From: Bacteroidia bacterium
Lineage (GTDB): Bacteria > Bacteroidota > Bacteroidia > Bacteroidales > UBA12481
Length of the DNA stretch: 6,789 bases
Direction of reading: 5' to 3'
Assembly: GCA_026391235.1 (NCBI GenBank)
Contig: JAPLDV010000247.1
Location: 1-6,789 of the forward strand
The translations under genes were made by a program, and so were the position numbers. The notes beneath the pieces were generated by a model. That model was not told the DNA's origin, did not search any database, and was given only the letters and a program-made list of their open reading frames with translations. Positions 9 to 6,789 of the stretch are shown in pieces (the first letter of the stretch is position 1; every line of letters starts with the position of its first letter).

Positions 9-3000
9 GTGCAAATCAGCTTTCCATCATTTATTAGATTTTTAATTCTGTTATTTTCATTATTAACCTTTACTGGTATAAAAGTTAATGGTCAGGACAG
101 TTTCTCCGGAGACAAAAGGGATACCTCCTTAGTATATGATGATATACCGGTGCGTGTTTTAATAGAAGGGATTGGTAGTTTTTACATTGATGCCTTGTAT
201 ACCAGTAGTGATTTGTTATTCGTGAATGTAGGAGATTTATTCACTAATCTGAAGATTCAATGCATGATTAGTCAGGATGGCGATAGTATTGGTGGATTTA
301 CAGAGAATGAAGGCAAGACTTATTTAATCAACTACCACTCAGGGCAAATAGAAATAGGTAATAAAAGAATAGAAATACGGAACGGATTATTAAAGGAATT
401 TGGCGCTGTTTATATGGAAACATCCTTATTCTCAGAAACTTTTGGACTATCCATGTCATTTAATTATCGTGCTCTCACTCTTGAAATAAAATCGAATTTC
501 GAACTACCAATCCTGAAACAAAAACGTCTTGAAAAGCTTCAATTAAATTTAACAAAGTTGAAAGGGGAAGCAACTGCGGACACGTTGGTACAACGTAAAT
601 ATCATATATTCAAGCCGGGCAATATGGATTGGTCCATAACTTCAATTCAAAAATGGCCGGGTTTAACTGAAAACTATCTCAGACTGGGCCTGGGAACTGA
701 ACTATTTTTTGGTGAAGCCAACATTTCAATTGATTATTCAAATCGGTATCCTTTCGATGATCGTCAGTTGCGATACCTTTGGCGCTGGGTTGATAATGAT
801 AAGCGATTAATAAAACAGGCTCAAATAGGCAAGATCAATGATCAGCCAATAGCATTTATTAATTCTCCGATAATCGGCGCAGCGGTCAGAAACACTCCGA
901 CCACAGTAAGAAAAGCAAACGGTTATTATTCCATCAATGACCATACGGAACCCAACTGGACGGTTGAACTCTACATCAACGATGTTCTGATTGATTTTAC
1001 CAAGGCCGATGCCTCGGGTTTGTATGTTTTTAAGGTGCCGATAGTTTATGGTTATACTACCTTAAAATTAAAATTCTACGGTCCTATGGGCGAGGAACGC
1101 ACTGATGAACGGATTATGAATGTTCCTTATACAATAATGCCGGCCAAGGAATTTGAATATGGATTGTCTGGTGGATTTGTGGAGGACAGTACCTGGAGCC
1201 GCTATGGGAAAGCTGATTTTAACTACGGTGTTAGCCGTTTATTGACTGTAGGCGGGGGACTCGAATATTTGTCTTCCATTTCTTCGGGTAACTTTATTCC
1301 TTATGCAAAGGCAACTTTCCAACCTTTCGGCAGATTAATAGTCAACGCCGAATATGCCTACCGAGTCAGGTTTAGAGGGATGTTGAATTATTTCATAGGG
1401 AAAAATGTCTTGTTGGAAATGGATTATTCCAAATATGCTGATGGCCAGATGGCTACACGATTTAATGCTTCTGAGGAAAGGAAAGTTAAGCTATCAGCTC
1501 CTTTCAGGATGAGAAAGATCTCCGGATTTGCGAGGTTGGAATATTCGCAAATGATTTACCCTGATTTTTACTTTAATCAGGGAAGTTTTATGTTGTCCGC
1601 ATACTATAAGCAACTTAGCATCAATTCATCCACGCAATTCAATTGGATTGGACAAAGAGCACCTTACGCTACATCTGATTTTGCATTATCCTATCGGTTT
1701 AACCGGGGATTTGTATTCCGTCCTTCTGCTCAGATAAATCTGAATGATGGAAATTTTGTCATGATCAAGGCGGAGATTGAAAAAAGGATGTCAAAGGCTT
1801 ATGTATCAGTTTCATTGCAAAGAAATATAGCAAATAAAAGTAACTATATCAACCTGTCCATCAGATATGATTTATCATTTGCCAGAGCCAATATTTCTGC
1901 TTTTCAAAGTAACGGGATAATTTCTACCTCCGAAAGCGCCCAGGGCAGCCTGGCTTTCGGCGGTGATAAATACATTCATGTCAGCAATAATTCTTCAGTC
2001 AGCAAAGGTGGTATCCTGCTCTATCCTTTTCTTGATCTCAATCAGAACGGAATCAGGGACAACGGCGAGCGGCTGGTGAAAATCGCATCGGTAAAAATCG
2101 GCGGCGGCAGGGCCATTTTCAGCAAAAAAGATTCCATCGTCCGTATCCCCGACCTCAACGCCTTTATCAGTTATACCGTTGAATTTGCCGATAACGACCT
2201 GGAGAACATCTCCTGGCGCTTCAAAAATAAAGTTTACTCTATATTGGTCGACCCGAACCAGTTTAAGCGTGTGGATGTTCCGGTGATTGCCGTTGGAGAG
2301 GCCAGCGGGATGGCCTATATGGACAAGAACAATGTATTGAAGGGAATCGGGAAAATCCTGATCAAATTCTATAAAAGAAACAGCAACACGGTAATCGCCG
2401 GAACACTCTCGGAATCCGACGGATACATCGATTATATGGGTTTGGCACCGGGCGATTACGTGGCCTGCGTGGATTCGGCCCAGCTCACCAATCTCGATTT
2501 TACCGTGGATCCGCTGTGCAGAGCCTTCACGATCAAAGCCACCGAACAGGGCGATATCGTTAACGGACTTGATTTTGTTCTCCGGGCAAAATTGGTTGAA
2601 CCGGCTAAAGAGCCGAATGAAGACCCGGAACCTGATGAAGAAGTACCTGAACCTGAACAGGTTGACAAACAGCAGCCAACCAAACCTATGGCTCCGGGCA
2701 AGCAACAAGCTGAAACCAAAACTGAAATATTGCAGGAACCCCCATCGCTATCCTCGAAACCTGGTAACCTCCTACCTGATACCCGAAACCCGAAACCCGA
2801 TAACCTGATAACTGATAACCCGATAACTGATAACCTGAAAACCGATAACCTGAAAACCGATAACCCGAAACCCGAAACCCTCTTCAAAGTGCAGCTGCTG
2901 GCTTCGCGCAAGCAGGTAAATGTGCGGGATTACTTTGCAAAGGTATTGGCCGGTCAGCCGGGCCTGACCATCGTGGAAACACCCGGGGCCGACGGATATT

Positions 3001-3119
3001 ACCGGTATACCGCCGGAACCTTCGTAAGTATGACCAAGGCTAAGGAACTGATGAGCCGGATCACCCTGGGCGGGTGGAAGGAGTGTTTTATCGCCGTTGA
3101 AAGGAGGGCGAAGCCATGA
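9..3119 (+). CDS. Usher-like outer-membrane barrel protein with C-terminal SPOR domain
   Basis: This encodes an exported protein of about 1036 residues. Residues 1-28 form a signal peptide (hydrophobic FLILLFSLLTF core, then NGQDS). Residues about 40-165 form a strand-rich periplasmic-type domain resembling copper-amine-oxidase N-terminal or stalk domains (weak call). Residues about 270-375 resemble the plug and barrel entry of fimbrial ushers (NSPIIGAAVRNTP, then WTVELYINDVLIDF, then YGPMGEERTDER). Residues about 381-660 are alternating polar and aromatic strands consistent with an outer-membrane beta barrel. Residues 676-687 read DLNQNGIRDNGE, as in SdrD-like or usher-associated domains. 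Residues about 764-859 match a carboxypeptidase-regulatory or usher C-terminal fold (SESDGYIDYMGLAPGDY). A Pro/Glu-rich linker and a SPOR domain follow. Classical ushers lack SPOR. The gene overlaps the next one by ATGA. The first codon in the window is GTG; the frame is open to its left with no stop, so the real start may be upstream. Barrel and SPOR calls are fairly firm; usher function is inferred. Confidence 0.85.
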   Translation: MQISFPSFIRFLILLFSLLTFTGIKVNGQDSFSGDKRDTSLVYDDIPVRVLIEGIGSFYIDALYTSSDLLFVNVGDLFTNLKIQCMISQDGDSIGGFTENEGKTYLINYHSGQIEIGNKRIEIRNGLLKEFGAVYMETSLFSETFGLSMSFNYRALTLEIKSNFELPILKQKRLEKLQLNLTKLKGEATADTLVQRKYHIFKPGNMDWSITSIQKWPGLTENYLRLGLGTELFFGEANISIDYSNRYPFDDRQLRYLWRWVDNDKRLIKQAQIGKINDQPIAFINSPIIGAAVRNTPTTVRKANGYYSINDHTEPNWTVELYINDVLIDFTKADASGLYVFKVPIVYGYTTLKLKFYGPMGEERTDERIMNVPYTIMPAKEFEYGLSGGFVEDSTWSRYGKADFNYGVSRLLTVGGGLEYLSSISSGNFIPYAKATFQPFGRLIVNAEYAYRVRFRGMLNYFIGKNVLLEMDYSKYADGQMATRFNASEERKVKLSAPFRMRKISGFARLEYSQMIYPDFYFNQGSFMLSAYYKQLSINSSTQFNWIGQRAPYATSDFALSYRFNRGFVFRPSAQINLNDGNFVMIKAEIEKRMSKAYVSVSLQRNIANKSNYINLSIRYDLSFARANISAFQSNGIISTSESAQGSLAFGGDKYIHVSNNSSVSKGGILLYPFLDLNQNGIRDNGERLVKIASVKIGGGRAIFSKKDSIVRIPDLNAFISYTVEFADNDLENISWRFKNKVYSILVDPNQFKRVDVPVIAVGEASGMAYMDKNNVLKGIGKILIKFYKRNSNTVIAGTLSESDGYIDYMGLAPGDYVACVDSAQLTNLDFTVDPLCRAFTIKATEQGDIVNGLDFVLRAKLVEPAKEPNEDPEPDEEVPEPEQVDKQQPTKPMAPGKQQAETKTEILQEPPSLSSKPGNLLPDTRNPKPDNLITDNPITDNLKTDNLKTDNPKPETLFKVQLLASRKQVNVRDYFAKVLAGQPGLTIVETPGADGYYRYTAGTFVSMTKAKELMSRITLGGWKECFIAVERRAKP
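2595..2873 (+). other. Pro/Glu/Lys-rich periplasmic linker of the usher-like protein
   Basis: Residues about 863-955 are low in hydrophobics and dominated by Pro, Glu, Asp, Lys, Asn and Thr. They begin with an acidic EPNEDPEPDEEVPEPEQ stretch and end in a five-residue repeat (DNLIT, DNPIT, DNLKT, DNLKT, DNPKP). The segment has no predicted fold. It sits between the last folded outer-membrane-associated domain and the SPOR domain, so it most simply acts as a flexible spacer from the outer membrane to the peptidoglycan. This role is inferred from composition and position only. Confidence 0.7.
2774..2877 (+). repeat. In-frame minisatellite of alternating 8- and 7-base units
   Basis: Fourteen near-identical short units run head to tail: ACCTGAT, ACCCGAAA, CCCGAAA, CCCGATA, ACCTGATA, ACTGATA, ACCCGATA, ACTGATA, ACCTGAAA, ACCGATA, ACCTGAAA, ACCGATA, ACCCGAAA, CCCGAAA. 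Most alternate 8 and 7 bases, so a pair is 15 bases and encodes five residues. From 2799 to 2873 this gives five in-frame DN-x-x-T/P repeats. The array is read directly from the sequence. It lies wholly within the linker, where gain or loss of a pair would change length without breaking the frame. Confidence 0.9.
2883..3110 (+). other. SPOR domain (peptidoglycan binding) at the C terminus of the usher-like protein
   Basis: Residues about 959-1034 have the two-half pattern of SPOR domains. The first half starts FKVQLLASRK and the second starts GYYRYTAGTFVSM, followed by a helix TKAKELMSRI and a closing strand ECFIAVE. SPOR domains of this family bind glycan strands lacking stem peptides, usually at division or remodelling sites. 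Here the domain would tether an outer-membrane protein to the cell wall. The match is by pattern. The length of about 75 residues is normal for the family, and the position at the very C terminus is also typical. Confidence 0.82.
3101..3107 (+). promoter_or_regulatory. Strong Shine-Dalgarno sequence for the adhesin gene, inside the upstream coding region
   Basis: AAGGAGG ends eight bases before the ATG at 3116, a near-ideal spacing. It is embedded in the Glu-Arg-Arg-Ala codons at the end of the usher-like gene. It fixes the start of the second gene at 3116 rather than the in-frame ATG at 3122. Such a perfect site is noteworthy in Bacteroidota, which as a group rely little on Shine-Dalgarno pairing. 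The Arg-Arg codons could also produce it by chance. Confidence 0.7.
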
Positions 3120-6100
3120 AGATGAACATCAAAACGATCGGTGCTGCTGTTTTAATGGCATTGGTTTTCCTGTTTTCAACGTCAGTGGTTAAAGCTGCAA
3201 CCATAACGAGTACCGCTGCGGGAGGTACCTGGTCCGTCACAACCACCTGGGTCGGAGGCGTGGTGCCCCTGTCAACAGATGCAGTAGTCATTGCAACAAC
3301 CGGTGCAGGAGTAGTCACCATATCAGCGACTACCACCTGCAACAGTCTGGTAATCAATAGCGGGTCTACCCTTGCGGTAACACGGAATTTTACGGTAACA
3401 ACCACAACCATTATATCAGGAACAATAAATTTTAGTTCCAATACTACTACAGCCCGGGCAATGACGTTCACAGGTGATGTAACCCTGAACAGTGGTGCGG
3501 TCTGGACCGAACCCGCTACCGGGAACGGTTCCACAAATACCTATAGCATCCGTGCAAACTTCACGAACAATGCCACTACATTCAATGCCCTGGGTACAGG
3601 AGTGCATACCTTCAGCGGATCCGCCAAAACAATCAGCGGATCAACTATCACTTCGATACCCCGTGTGGCCGTTACAGGAACTGTCACCAATGCAGGAACT
3701 CTTACGGTAGGAACAGCATTGACAGGTGCAGGAACTTTAACCAATGGTAACGGGACAACCGGAACCCTTAATATCGGGGGAACAGTTTCTGTAACCACCC
3801 TTACTGCCAATGCGGCCAATAACCTGGTAAATTATACCGGTGCTGCACAAACCGCCAAGGTAACCATCTACAATAATCTTACTTTATCCGGTTCGCTGGC
3901 AAAGACCTTCGCCACAACGCCTACCGTTAATGGTGTGCTTTCACTCGAAGGAACCGCCACCGTTACAGTTGCAACAGGAGTTGTAACCTATGGCGCGGCC
4001 GCTACCCTCCAATATAACAAACCCGCTGCCTATACGGCCACAACCAAGGAATGGATAAGCCCATTTACGGGCACGGGTGGAATAATCATTAAAAATGCAG
4101 GAGCCATCACCACGCCGGGTGCTGTGCAAATTGGAAATAATACCAGTGTTCCTTTAAACATCAATAGTGGTGCTACCTTAACACCGGGAGCAAACCTGAT
4201 AACCTTGCACGGAGATTTTATCAACGCCGGAACATTAACCAGCGGATCAGGGGGTATAACCATTGCCGGAACAGTAACCACACAATCCATCGCGGGCTTT
4301 ACCACAACCGGAACCGTTACCCTGACCAAAACTGCGGGAACGGCAACCTTGCAGGGAGGTGTTACCGCTGGGGCACTCACGATCAATGGATCGGGTGGTA
4401 CGTTAAATCTTGGAACATCATTGATGCATACCTTTTCAGGAGTAGTAACTTTAACTGCCGGCACTTTAAACGGAGGCAGCAGTACCCTCAACGAAACTGC
4501 GGTAAGCACAACTGCATGGAATGGTACCGGCACTGTTTTCAGTGCAGGCACCGGAACAGTAAATTTCAGTGCTGCCGGTGCACAAACGCTTTCTGCAACC
4601 GCCACCACTTTTTATAACCTGATCGTCTCCAATTCAGGAATAAAAACCTTTACAAATACACCAACAGTTAATGGGGTACTATCACTTGAGGGTACGGCAA
4701 CAGCTACTGCTGCCCCCACCTATGGTTCTGCCGCCACGCTTCAATATAATACGGCCACTTCGAGATCGGCAGGAGTTGAATGGGTAACCCCTTTTGCGGC
4801 CTCAGGCGGAGTTGTCATTGCCAATACCGGTGCCATTACCATGAATGCCGCCAAAGTATTCAATTCCACCGCCCCGCTCACGGTAAACAGCGGTTCATCC
4901 CTGTCCATGTCAACCTGGTTGTTGACCTTAAACGGCGATCTGATCAATAACGGGGGAACAGCGGGTGGAACCACCGGAGGTGTAACAATATCAGGAACTG
5001 CAACCCAAAGCATTGGTGCCTTTACTACCACCGGCACTGTTTCCATGACCAAAACCGGTGGAACCGCAACTTTTACCGGAAATGTAAACGGCGCTGGATT
5101 GACCATCAACGGATCGGGAGGCACGTTAAATCTGGGAGCAGCCCAAACGCATACCTTCACGGGCGTCGTAACTCTTACCGCAGGAAGCTTAAACGGCGGG
5201 AGCAGTACCCTCAACGAAAATGCGGTGAGTACCTCGGCCTGGAACGGGACAGGAAGTTTGTTCACACCCGCTTCGGGAACCGTGAATTTCGGCGGTGCCG
5301 GTAACCAAACCCTTGCAGCCTCATCATTATCATTCAATATTCTTGCATTTTCCGGTTCGGGTAATAAAATATTTTCTTCAATTGCCGCAATCAGTGGTAA
5401 CATGTCAATAAGTGGAACAGCAATAGCTGATCTTGGGACATTCGATCATAGTTCAAATTCGCTGACCTTCAGCGGAACCAATCAAAGTTCGGGAACCTGG
5501 GGATCGACTTCTTCAGGTGCATACCATAAGAATGATACTTACTTTTTATCGGGGTCCGGTACCATAAATGTGAATTGTACCGCTCCAAATGCTCCAACGA
5601 GCGGGGGAAACCATACCATATGTTCGGGTGCAACTATTCCTGCACTTTCTGTATCGGTAGGTGGTGGAGAAACCGCGGATTGGTATTCGCTTGCAGAAGG
5701 GGGAACCTTACTTGCTTCAGGTTCCCTGACGTATACTCCGTCGGCAGCAGGAACCTTTTATGCTGAAACCAGGGCAGGAGGCTGTTTAAGTGCATCACGA
5801 ACCGGTGTCACCCTGGTCGTTAACCCCAACCCTGCGTTGCTTTCATTAACAGGGAGTACCATCTGTACCAGTCCGGGCGGGAATGGGACAATCACCTCAA
5901 CAACATCTGTTACAGGTATCAATTATCAGCTTTACAATGGAAGTAATGCCGCCCAGGGAGCGGCAAAGGCAGGCACGGGTTCAGGACTGACCTGGACAAG
6001 TCTTTCGGCAGGTACAGGATATTATGTGATCGGTACAAATGCCACAACTAACTGTTATTCAACCAGTAGTACTGCAAACATTTCAACTAATACCAACCCT

Positions 6101-6789
6101 GCAGCCCTATCGCTAACCGGCAGCGCCATTTGCACGAGTCCGGGTGGTAACGGGTTTATAACTTCATCAACTTCAGTGGTTGGGGTAAACTATCAACTGT
6201 ATGACGGAAGCAATAACCCTGTTCAGTCGGCGCAACCGGGTACCGGAGCAGGATTGGATTGGTCAAATCTATCGTCCGGTACAGGGTATTATGTAATAGG
6301 TACCAATGCAACAACTTCTTGTGTTTCACCAAATAGTAATACAGTGAATATCACTTCAACTGCCAATCCTGTCGCACTTATTTTAACAGGAAGTACAATC
6401 TGTGCCAGTCCCGACGGCAATGGCACAATTACCTCATCAACCTCTCAATCCGGCATAGATTATCAGCTGTTTGATGTCACCGATTTAGAGGTGGGAAGTC
6501 CAATCGCGGGTACAGGATTCGGACTGACCTGGTCGGGCCTCACAGCTGCAAGCGGATATTACGCAGTGGGAACAAATGCAACCACTTTCTGTTCTTCAGA
6601 TAACAGCAATGCGGTGAATGTTTCCACCACTCCCAATCCCACGATAACCAGTTCTGCCACGGCCGCAGCCGTTTGTTTCAGCGCCGGTTCTCAAAATACA
6701 ACGCTTTCATACAGTGCAACAACCAATTCGCCGACAAACTTTACGATTACCTGGAATACAGTGGCCCACACGGCAGGGTTGGTTGATGT
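3116..6789 (+). CDS. Giant secreted repeat adhesin, beta-helix plus Ig-like domains (3' end beyond window)
   Basis: Hand translation stays open for 1224 codons to the window edge. Residues 1-27 are a signal peptide (MKMNIK, hydrophobic core, VKA before the cut). Residues 29-59 carry the opening motif of many Bacteroidota surface proteins: GTWSVTTTW, GGVVP, D55, VVI. Residues about 60-790 are Thr/Gly/Ser/Asn-rich, short-strand sequence consistent with a beta-helix, with a duplicated unit of about 245 residues. Residues 793-819 hold GTWGSTSS..KNDTYF, a block that often closes such regions. Residues about 820-904 form an Ig-like domain of the CHU_C-associated type (TICSG...WYS...AGTFYAE...GGC). 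Residues 905-1173 are three tandem Ig-like repeats. A new domain opens at 1174 (VCFSAGSQNTTLSY). The likely role is cell-surface adhesion or matrix formation. No catalytic motif was seen. It overlaps the usher-like gene by ATGA, so coupled translation is likely. The C-terminal sorting signal, if any, lies outside the window. Confidence 0.9.
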   Translation, partial: MKMNIKTIGAAVLMALVFLFSTSVVKAATITSTAAGGTWSVTTTWVGGVVPLSTDAVVIATTGAGVVTISATTTCNSLVINSGSTLAVTRNFTVTTTTIISGTINFSSNTTTARAMTFTGDVTLNSGAVWTEPATGNGSTNTYSIRANFTNNATTFNALGTGVHTFSGSAKTISGSTITSIPRVAVTGTVTNAGTLTVGTALTGAGTLTNGNGTTGTLNIGGTVSVTTLTANAANNLVNYTGAAQTAKVTIYNNLTLSGSLAKTFATTPTVNGVLSLEGTATVTVATGVVTYGAAATLQYNKPAAYTATTKEWISPFTGTGGIIIKNAGAITTPGAVQIGNNTSVPLNINSGATLTPGANLITLHGDFINAGTLTSGSGGITIAGTVTTQSIAGFTTTGTVTLTKTAGTATLQGGVTAGALTINGSGGTLNLGTSLMHTFSGVVTLTAGTLNGGSSTLNETAVSTTAWNGTGTVFSAGTGTVNFSAAGAQTLSATATTFYNLIVSNSGIKTFTNTPTVNGVLSLEGTATATAAPTYGSAATLQYNTATSRSAGVEWVTPFAASGGVVIANTGAITMNAAKVFNSTAPLTVNSGSSLSMSTWLLTLNGDLINNGGTAGGTTGGVTISGTATQSIGAFTTTGTVSMTKTGGTATFTGNVNGAGLTINGSGGTLNLGAAQTHTFTGVVTLTAGSLNGGSSTLNENAVSTSAWNGTGSLFTPASGTVNFGGAGNQTLAASSLSFNILAFSGSGNKIFSSIAAISGNMSISGTAIADLGTFDHSSNSLTFSGTNQSSGTWGSTSSGAYHKNDTYFLSGSGTINVNCTAPNAPTSGGNHTICSGATIPALSVSVGGGETADWYSLAEGGTLLASGSLTYTPSAAGTFYAETRAGGCLSASRTGVTLVVNPNPALLSLTGSTICTSPGGNGTITSTTSVTGINYQLYNGSNAAQGAAKAGTGSGLTWTSLSAGTGYYVIGTNATTNCYSTSSTANISTNTNPAALSLTGSAICTSPGGNGFITSSTSVVGVNYQLYDGSNNPVQSAQPGTGAGLDWSNLSSGTGYYVIGTNATTSCVSPNSNTVNITSTANPVALILTGSTICASPDGNGTITSSTSQSGIDYQLFDVTDLEVGSPIAGTGFGLTWSGLTAASGYYAVGTNATTFCSSDNSNAVNVSTTPNPTITSSATAAAVCFSAGSQNTTLSYSATTNSPTNFTITWNTVAHTAGLVD
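3872..4612 (+). repeat. Adhesin long repeat, unit 1 (about 247 residues)
   Basis: This is the first copy of a long duplicated beta-helix-like unit, residues about 253-499. Landmarks in order are KTF, TPTVNGVLSLEGTAT, YGAAATLQYN, a GD-x-INAG segment, TTTGTV, LTINGSGGTLNLG, LNGGSSTLNE, W-x-GTGTVF and GTVNFSAAGAQTL. The second copy repeats the same landmarks in the same order. At the landmark TPTVNG the two copies are 741 bases apart. At GGTLNLG they are 723 bases apart, so an 18-base (six-codon) net length difference separates them. Confidence 0.85.
4613..5332 (+). repeat. Adhesin long repeat, unit 2 (about 240 residues)
   Basis: This is the second copy, residues about 500-739. It shares TPTVNGVLSLEGTAT exactly with unit 1, and also YG-S-AATLQYN, GDLIN, TTTGTV, LTINGSGGTLNLG, LNGGSSTLNE and GTVNF-GGAGNQTL. 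At DNA level the copies are clearly diverged at third positions. The identical 19-base block at 4478-4496 and 5201-5219 is the longest match I noticed. This points to an old duplication kept under protein-level constraint, not a recent copy. Confidence 0.85.
5333..5572 (+). repeat. Partial third unit and closing block of the beta-helix region
   Basis: The sequence FNILAFSGSGNKIF matches the opening of unit 2 (YNLIVSNSGIKTF) and unit 1, then diverges. After about 45 residues it becomes the closing block SLTFSGTNQSSGTWGS and KNDTYFLSGSGTINV, residues about 783-819. I have seen this block style at the end of filamentous repeat regions in Bacteroidota proteins, just before Ig-like modules, as here. 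This looks like a capped, truncated copy of the long repeat. Confidence 0.65.
5573..5827 (+). other. Ig-like domain (CHU_C-associated type) in the adhesin
   Basis: Residues about 820-904 start NCTAPNAPTSGGNHTICSG and continue through WYSLAEGGTLLASG, the turn TYTPSAAGTFYAE and GGCLSASRT to a final VTLVVNPNP strand. The W-Y-S, AGTFYAE and GC positions fit the Ig-like domains found in large Bacteroidota gliding or adhesion proteins. It differs from the three repeats that follow, although it shares the paired-cysteine plan. Confidence 0.7.
5828..6634 (+). repeat. Three tandem Ig-like repeats of 89, 90 and 90 residues
   Basis: The units begin at 5828, 6095 and 6365, each with N-P-x-x-L/I, then LTGS-x-IC-x-SP-GNG-x-I-TS. 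Each continues with YQL, a G-L-x-W segment, GYY(V/A)-x-GTNATT-x-C and a Thr/Ser/Asn-rich strand. Cysteines fall at residues 917/980, 1006/1069 and 1096/1159, a spacing of exactly 63 in all three. This suggests one disulfide per domain in an exported protein. The overall plan resembles SprB-type repeats of gliding bacteria, but I would not name the family without a profile search. Confidence 0.88.
6635..6789 (+). other. Start of a further adhesin domain, cut by the window edge
   Basis: Residues 1174-1224 read NPTITSS, then VCFSAGSQNTTLSYSATTNSPTNF, then TITWNTVAHTAGLVD. This breaks the 90-residue pattern (no LTGS-x-IC start) and opens a different strand-rich module. I have seen the SYSATTNSPT and TITWN style in other giant Bacteroidota proteins, where it occurs in multiple copies. 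The gene therefore probably continues well past the window. Confidence 0.6.

Follow-up and report, generated by a model that had tools for sequence, protein, structure and literature searches.

A predicted outer-membrane usher with a SPOR domain and a linked repeat adhesin point to a probable divergent chaperone-usher-type pilus operon in Bacteroidota

Introduction

Two adjoining genes on the forward strand of a 6,789-nucleotide stretch of Bacteroidia DNA (contig JAPLDV010000247.1 of assembly GCA_026391235.1, Bacteroidales; the whole stretch is called the window below) encode a barrel protein ending in a SPOR domain and a large repeat adhesin. What does the barrel do, and does it serve the adhesin encoded beside it? 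An earlier note, made from the sequence alone, had seen usher-like plug and C-terminal regions in the barrel protein and suggested a Bacteroidota analogue of the chaperone-usher systems, in which the barrel exports, anchors or organises the adhesin. Following up the window and its relatives, we consider it probable that the window covers the right half of an operon for a chaperone-usher-type pilus, with the assembly mechanism proposed below and an adhesin exported by the type IX system.

Results

The barrel protein models as a 24-strand usher

The first gene is predicted to encode an outer-membrane usher. Its open reading frame (ORF) starts at a GTG at position 9 and encodes 1036 aa; the frame is open from base 3 up to the left edge, and the true start may therefore lie left of the window. 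The protein has at least 647 homologues at E ≤ 1e-3, and an AlphaFold2 (AF2) model from a trimmed, deeper alignment reached a predicted local distance difference test (pLDDT) score of 90. Counted by hand from the DSSP string of this model, the barrel has 24 strands; a plug-like insert follows strand 6, as the plug does in PapC and FimD, and C-terminal domains lie beyond the barrel. The plug-like stretch is well conserved in alignments of relatives. All 17 best PDB matches of the model were FimD or PapC, with E down to 1.7e-26, and the structural alignment with ushers extended through the C-terminal domains, FimD being covered to residue 833; the VIA-align rows begin near model residue 156, so that the N-terminal domain was barely compared. 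We read the C-terminal beta region of the model as two domains, as in FimD. The usher-like plug and C-terminal regions claimed in the earlier note are thus borne out by the model and its matches.

Family models gave a different view of the sequence. At E ≤ 1, Pfam matched only SPOR and SdrD_B on the window protein and no usher model, the SdrD_B match (residues 778-823) lying below threshold at 27.3 vs 29.7 bits, and NCBIfam had no match for it. In a sample of 148 genomes from the phylum to which Chitinophaga ginsengisoli belongs, the Pfam Usher model (PF00577) matched none, with a positive E. coli control; we therefore place the usher outside that sequence family, in a branch of its own that shares the architecture. 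The SPOR domain on the barrel protein, also proposed before, held up: its Pfam score equals the curated cut-off exactly (21 of 21 bits, E 4.4e-4), and a profile from 39 usher relatives matched the solved SPOR domain 1x60 (E 1.2e-4).

Usher relatives neighbour chaperone and pilin-like genes

Scanning genome contigs with the window usher as a single query sequence gave 15 pattern matches and zero relatives. We analysed 81 relative loci, comprising the best 80 of 136 confirmed from genome contigs by an alignment-based scan and one plasmid locus. The gene order in these relatives is a DUF4402 pilin-like gene, a PapD-type chaperone gene, a second DUF4402 gene and the usher. A DUF4402 gene lies directly upstream of the usher in 73 of the 78 loci with at least 600 bases upstream, and its stop is at most 10 bases from the usher start in 54/74 loci. 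The earlier note had advised looking for a chaperone near barrel homologues, and one was present within six upstream ORFs in 62 of the 74 loci with at least 2 kb upstream; the second DUF4402 gene was likewise found in 62/74 of these.

In ten of the 12 chaperone-less loci, the second ORF upstream of the usher is an adhesin gene open at the edge of the sequence read. A whole-genome search recovered a chaperone for L080 and for L030, L054, L060, L063, L064, L065, L068 and L071, and gave no chaperone match for L074 and L075, L055 being outside the search. For four loci not belonging to the chaperone-less set, the same kind of match was full for L078, partial for L031 and absent for L013 and L058. 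Contig numbers and coordinates suggest that in L064, L068 and L080 the chaperone gene is on the same contig, just past the adhesin.

The chaperone assignment draws on an alignment of 44 sequences from a set of 63. PapD_N matched 24 of the 44 at E ≤ 1 (best 2.4e-5), and the gene before the usher passed the PapD_N cut-off of 23 bits in Polaromonas JS666 (25.3 bits; RefSeq name, fimbria/pilus periplasmic chaperone) and Pseudoalteromonas (23.2 bits); the corresponding Sphingopyxis gene had no PapD_N match. Profile comparison of the relatives' chaperones with seven E. coli chaperones gave 92.6%, a match whose portion over the signal peptide does not count as evidence; EcpB alone matched the profile weakly, and the only NCBIfam match of the chaperone, to TcfA, was weak (14.9 of 500 bits). 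An arginine invariant in 44/44 chaperones aligns with the TRVIY arginine of the E. coli chaperones, which we take to be PapD Arg8, and a second arginine, kept in 43/44, sits by our reading at the place of Lys112.

All 42 upstream subunits scanned (of 72) matched DUF4402, with every other family matching at most 2, and DUF4402 was the sole family above cut-off for six subunits scanned singly. By gene position the subunits fall into two types, 72 genes of a first type and 73 of a second, shorter type directly before the usher. Chaperone-usher pilins have as their hallmark a penultimate tyrosine and a glycine at -14. The first type, the presumptive shaft subunit, has the penultimate tyrosine in 69/72 and a median of 27 residues from the apparent mature N-terminus to an FG motif (71 measured). 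In the second type the penultimate residue is glutamine in 71/73 and glycine is at -14 in 71/73; 18 residues precede the FG motif in 51 of the 72 measured. Nine residues fewer would leave the second type with no donor strand, which suggests that it caps a fibre. A search with PF05229 (spore coat U) in two genomes gave no match and was uninformative, the controls being silent too.

The DUF4402-chaperone-usher module was also seen on plasmids of Polaromonas, Sphingopyxis and Pseudoalteromonas (L081, L127, L128 and L129), with transposase genes close to the module in both Polaromonas loci.

SPOR domains recur with the usher

On the Pseudoalteromonas plasmid a separate SPOR gene (L129:11715-12353; 31.2 of 21 bits) shares 4 bases with the end of the usher gene, its stop included, and a second one (L129:6413-6898) lies ahead of the subunit genes. 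In 22 further loci, 21 of a more distant sister branch and L143 of the window's own branch, SPOR-like domains were found on 5 of the 12 ushers that lack the motor cassette described below and on 0 of the 10 that have it, yet on MotB in 9 of those 10; many of these domain scores are weak. That SPOR and usher are paired again and again suggests that binding to the wall is important for this usher. The SPOR family binds glycan, and by analogy the domain would be a wall anchor.

The adhesin cluster is linked to the usher, and most members with a visible end carry type IX signals

The adhesin ATG at 3116 overlaps the usher TGA at 3117-3119, forming the ATGA junction, preceded by a strong ribosome-binding site, that had been pointed out before and that the sequence confirms. 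As the adhesin ORF is open at the right edge, its 1224 aa are a minimum. The product is rich in Thr, Gly, Ser and Ala, and a signal peptide is apparent by eye. BLASTP of the adhesin against itself returned the full-length match alone, and the repeats were shown instead by local alignment against shuffles: in 260-residue windows, residues 274-520 aligned to 521-761 with a score of 674, compared with best pair scores of 116-156 across five shuffles. Pfam found Ig_7 in four stretches (E 2.6e-16), and at the DNA level the gene holds two families of repeats, D1 with two units of 300 nt and D2 with three of 106 nt. These features agree with the secreted repeat adhesin of the earlier note. The window ends before the adhesin C-terminus, and any type IX signal would lie beyond the right edge.

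For relatives we used an adhesin cluster of 75 members, built by single linkage and hence loose, so that members need not share the window repeats. A cluster gene lies no more than six ORFs upstream or five downstream of the usher in 62/81 loci and is the next gene downstream in 27/74 loci only; the pairing of adhesin and barrel that had been proposed stands as linkage, and not as a fixed order. The adhesin gene may be upstream of, inside or downstream of the pilus module, in some loci between chaperone and usher, and the linkage recurs in different gene orders in Bacteroidales, Flavobacteria and Chitinophaga. The closest relatives of the window adhesin, in L004 (75% identity, 100% covered) and L008 (73%, 94%), follow the usher as in the window. 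Cluster members reach 2659 aa where both ends are present and 3341 aa among those that are incomplete.

Cluster members that reach 500 aa and whose C-terminus can be seen number 49; of these, 38 matched the type IX type A model TIGR04183 and 30 the type C model NF033708, both at E ≤ 0.01; the adhesins of L004 and L008 end beyond the sequence read, so that the sorting signals of the window adhesin's closest relatives are unseen. A C-terminal hidden Markov model (HMM) made from these 49 adhesins recovered 47 of them; being circular, it was not used, and TIGR04183 and NF033708 serve as the independent test. Because most cluster adhesins with a visible end carry type IX signals, the usher is unlikely to export them: the relatives' adhesins are, judging from their C-termini, probably mostly type IX cargo. 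In four plasmid loci of Proteobacteria the module is present and the annotated part, whose gene table is incomplete, shows no giant adhesin. The suggestion that the barrel exports the adhesin is thus not upheld by the relatives.

Two other arrangements were observed around the usher. In L025, L028, L029, L036 and L040, two smaller genes (about 440-610 and 615-645 aa) take the place of a single giant adhesin after the usher, the second of each pair having a type IX-like C-terminus by eye. In L054, L055, L063 and L068, where the adhesin is upstream, a conserved trio (about 223, 120 and 425-446 aa; clusters C5, C7 and C8) follows the usher; the trio is cut short in L060 and L064.

A sister branch neighbours a motor-like cassette

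The usher profile matched 35 of the 148 sampled genomes, C. ginsengisoli included. Nine of the 35 matched by the SPOR end only, leaving 26/148, C. ginsengisoli still among them and most of them of the sister branch. Outside the phylum, usher relatives were seen in Proteobacteria, Polaromonas and Roseateles among them. Directly after the usher in 10/21 sister-branch loci are FliG-like, tetratricopeptide repeat (TPR), MotA/ExbB and MotB genes. Pfam, run on L119 alone, matched FliG_C (E 8.5e-9), MotA/ExbB (E 4.1e-18) and a MotB with OmpA and SPOR domains; the gene order elsewhere comes from HMMs built on L119-L122. The L119 FliG-like protein, one of four whose hydrophobicity was profiled, has a hydrophobic segment near residues 210-240. 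FliG_C was found near the usher in 11 of the 26 usher genomes, counting G028, for which there are coordinates only, and the flagellar export gene FliP was not found in 8 of these 11. The cassette could be a flagellum-independent motor tied to a pilus. Many sister loci have four likely subunit genes, some recognised by size and C-terminus only. In seven genomes a further FliG-like frame, 616-652 aa long, lies at some other place than the usher locus.

Table 1. Features of the window and coordinates of the motor-related genes in relatives
Feature	Position	Strand	Basis
Predicted usher gene (outer-membrane pilus assembly barrel, C-terminal SPOR)	9..3119	+	ORF, AF2 model, PDB matches, homologues
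Likely usher signal peptide, residues 1-30	9..98	+	By eye, inference from sequence
Usher N-terminal periplasmic domain, residues 43-165	135..503	+	Folded domain in AF2 model
Barrel strands 1-6, residues 201-294	609..890	+	DSSP on model; strands counted by hand
Plug-like domain between strands 6 and 7, residues about 295-379	891..1145	+	Model
Barrel strands 7-24, residues 382-650	1152..1958	+	
C-terminal beta region, residues 651-861, taken as two domains like those of FimD	1959..2591	+	Pfam, model
Weak SdrD_B match within the C-terminal beta domains	2340-2477	+	Pfam
Pro/Lys/Glu-rich linker, residues 862-956, low model confidence	2592..2876	+	
SPOR domain of usher, residues 957-1022	2877..3074	+	Pfam PF05036; PDB 1x60
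Ribosome-binding site AAGGAGGG of adhesin gene	3101-3108	+	
Repeat adhesin gene, overlaps usher stop, open at right edge	3116..6787	+	
Repeat of about 244 aa in two copies, adhesin residues about 274-520 and 521-761	3935..5398	+	
Ig_7 repeats and three 106-nt DNA repeats	5585..6468	+	Pfam; DNA repeat search
Motor cassette loci	L119:3829-8752; also L120, L121, L122, L130, L131, L133, L136, L138, L139		
Second FliG-like frames	G133:C15, G044:C61, G149:C8, G145:C1, G083:C2, G060:C12, G052:C33		

Discussion

The relatives' operons suggest what the window would do. Directly left of it we expect genes for a shaft pilin of the DUF4402 family, a periplasmic chaperone of the PapD type and a shorter second DUF4402 subunit. 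The DUF4402 subunits would reach the periplasm via Sec, where the chaperone would lend a strand that completes the subunit fold. The usher would receive chaperone-subunit complexes, open its plug and thread the growing fibre through the 24-strand barrel, as the N-terminal extension of each shaft subunit takes the place of the chaperone strand in the subunit before it; the short DUF4402 subunit, seemingly lacking an extension, would cap the fibre. At the periplasmic C-terminus of the usher, SPOR would hold the platform to peptidoglycan, and the co-expressed repeat adhesin would leave by the type IX system and work with or beside the pilus.

With the chaperone-usher pili (FimD/PapC, FimC/PapD) this system shares the predicted 24-strand barrel, the insert after strand 6 and the C-terminal domains, and a PapD-type chaperone and pilin-like genes also occur in the operons of the window usher's relatives. 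It differs from them in lacking a Pfam Usher match, in having DUF4402 subunits rather than Pfam fimbrial families, and in the SPOR tail on many ushers of this branch. Bacteroidetes are missing from the phyla listed for fimbrial ushers in the usher-family table of one review (PMC4827864). Since the fold, plug-like insert, C-terminal domains and operon partners of relatives all fit, we prefer 'usher' to the 'analogue' of the earlier note, which was right about a chaperone-usher-type system with SPOR as a part of it and too weak in that word. The type V fimbriae of Bacteroidales (FimA/Mfa1) are also fimbriae of this phylum for which strand exchange is proposed, and no chaperone or usher genes are described for those of Porphyromonas gingivalis (PMC5789003); the DUF4402 subunits scanned here, unlike type V fimbriae, match no FimA/Mfa1 family. 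In two-partner secretion (TPS) a barrel gene likewise adjoins a large repeat adhesin gene, but the same review gives TPS barrels 16 strands (PMC4827864), whereas the window barrel models as a 24-strand usher. Type IX cargo adhesins share the C-terminal sorting domain with relatives of the window adhesin; unlike ordinary cargo of this kind, the relatives' adhesins are encoded beside or inside an usher operon.

How the adhesin relates to the usher allows more than one answer. It might be independent type IX cargo, placed in the operon merely for co-regulation and never interacting with the usher, an alternative that we rate only somewhat below an even chance: it fits the type IX signals, the shifting gene position and the 19 of 81 loci, some of them truncated, with no adhesin in the ORFs looked at, while the recurrent linkage in three groups of Bacteroidota suggests a shared task without proving contact. 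Alternatively, the usher could be a combined exporter of pilus and adhesin, much as the Pseudomonas P-usher CupB3, whose operon likewise encodes a large adhesin-like protein, is reported to export the TpsA-like CupB5 (PMC3031594). The ATGA overlap, the frequency of cluster genes near the usher, some of them between chaperone and usher, and the fact that the adhesin ends of the window, L004 and L008 lie outside the sequence would suit such an exporter. CupB3, however, bears an N-terminal POTRA domain according to the same source (PMC3031594), whereas Pfam found no POTRA or TPS domain in either window protein, a weak negative as Pfam missed the usher too; the type IX signals on most cluster adhesins and the proteobacterial modules lacking a giant adhesin in their annotated stretch also argue against usher export, and we regard it as very unlikely.

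The usher itself could secrete DUF4402 proteins that stay unpolymerised, so that a coat on the surface or a short tip would form in place of a pilus. We found no DUF4402 fibre in the open literature searched, and many loci have two DUF4402 genes only; the long-N and short-N subunit types, by contrast, fit a polymer with an end subunit, as do the four likely subunit genes of many sister loci, and we think a non-polymerising role rather unlikely. That the barrel is an ordinary porin or transporter, its usher match reflecting a mere barrel, we can hardly credit, because the top ranks of the pLDDT 90 model are all ushers aligned through the C-terminal domains and its relatives have chaperone and pilin neighbours.

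Several results weigh against a chaperone-usher-type pilus, the reading we prefer. The window itself carries no chaperone and no pilin, no chaperone match was found in 4 of 14 genomes searched whole (G161, G162, G165 and G166), and the fibre is deduced from genes. Sequence profiles linked neither the usher nor the DUF4402 proteins to E. coli ushers (probability 2.6%, not significant) or pilins (5.6%, not significant), and DUF4402 proteins had neither a profile nor a structure match to known pilins; chaperone and DUF4402 profiles against solved structures gave nothing convincing (best E 0.047). A first AF2 model from 39 sequences reached pLDDT 59, and although Foldseek ranked ushers first, VIA-align tied them with porins and did not separate the two, and the model was therefore remade from the trimmed, deeper alignment. 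For the chaperones, two other Ig-like Pfam families matched more sequences than PapD_N did (fn3_5 34/44, HYDIN-like 30/44), and several singly scanned chaperones fell below its cut-off: three had 13.1 bits, 15.4 bits or no match, further ones had 21.9 bits or no match, and L128 had no PapD_N match. Glycine at -14 is kept in 55/72 only of the first DUF4402 type. By an HMM from 36 of 39 rows of alignment A1, the 75 complete ushers of the 81 loci include only 43 that bear SPOR, some with an adhesin neighbour and some without. Finally, at E ≤ 1e-5 the visible part of the window adhesin matches only 11 of the cluster's 75 members, and none of the remaining ORFs in the 81 loci.

Extending the preferred reading, one may imagine a wall-coupled pilus lineage in which the window branch pins the usher by SPOR, and the sister branch uses a FliG-like rotor, MotA and a SPOR-bearing MotB, ion-driven and flagellum-independent, to pull, turn or gate a chaperone-usher pilus; we offer this as a speculation with the odds clearly against it.

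As far as we have seen, this divergent chaperone-usher branch is new: it falls outside the family of the Pfam usher model and combines DUF4402 subunits, putative wall-binding ushers and linked type IX adhesins. It was undescribed in the open literature searched, a search that preprints and most subscription papers lay outside. Standard gene models and the Pfam usher model miss this branch, present in 26/148 genomes, and it offers a ready gene set for deletion and imaging. The findings suggest a role for DUF4402 and an ability of ushers to attach to the cell wall; from the sister branch comes the idea, open to test, that a pilus may be linked to a motor.
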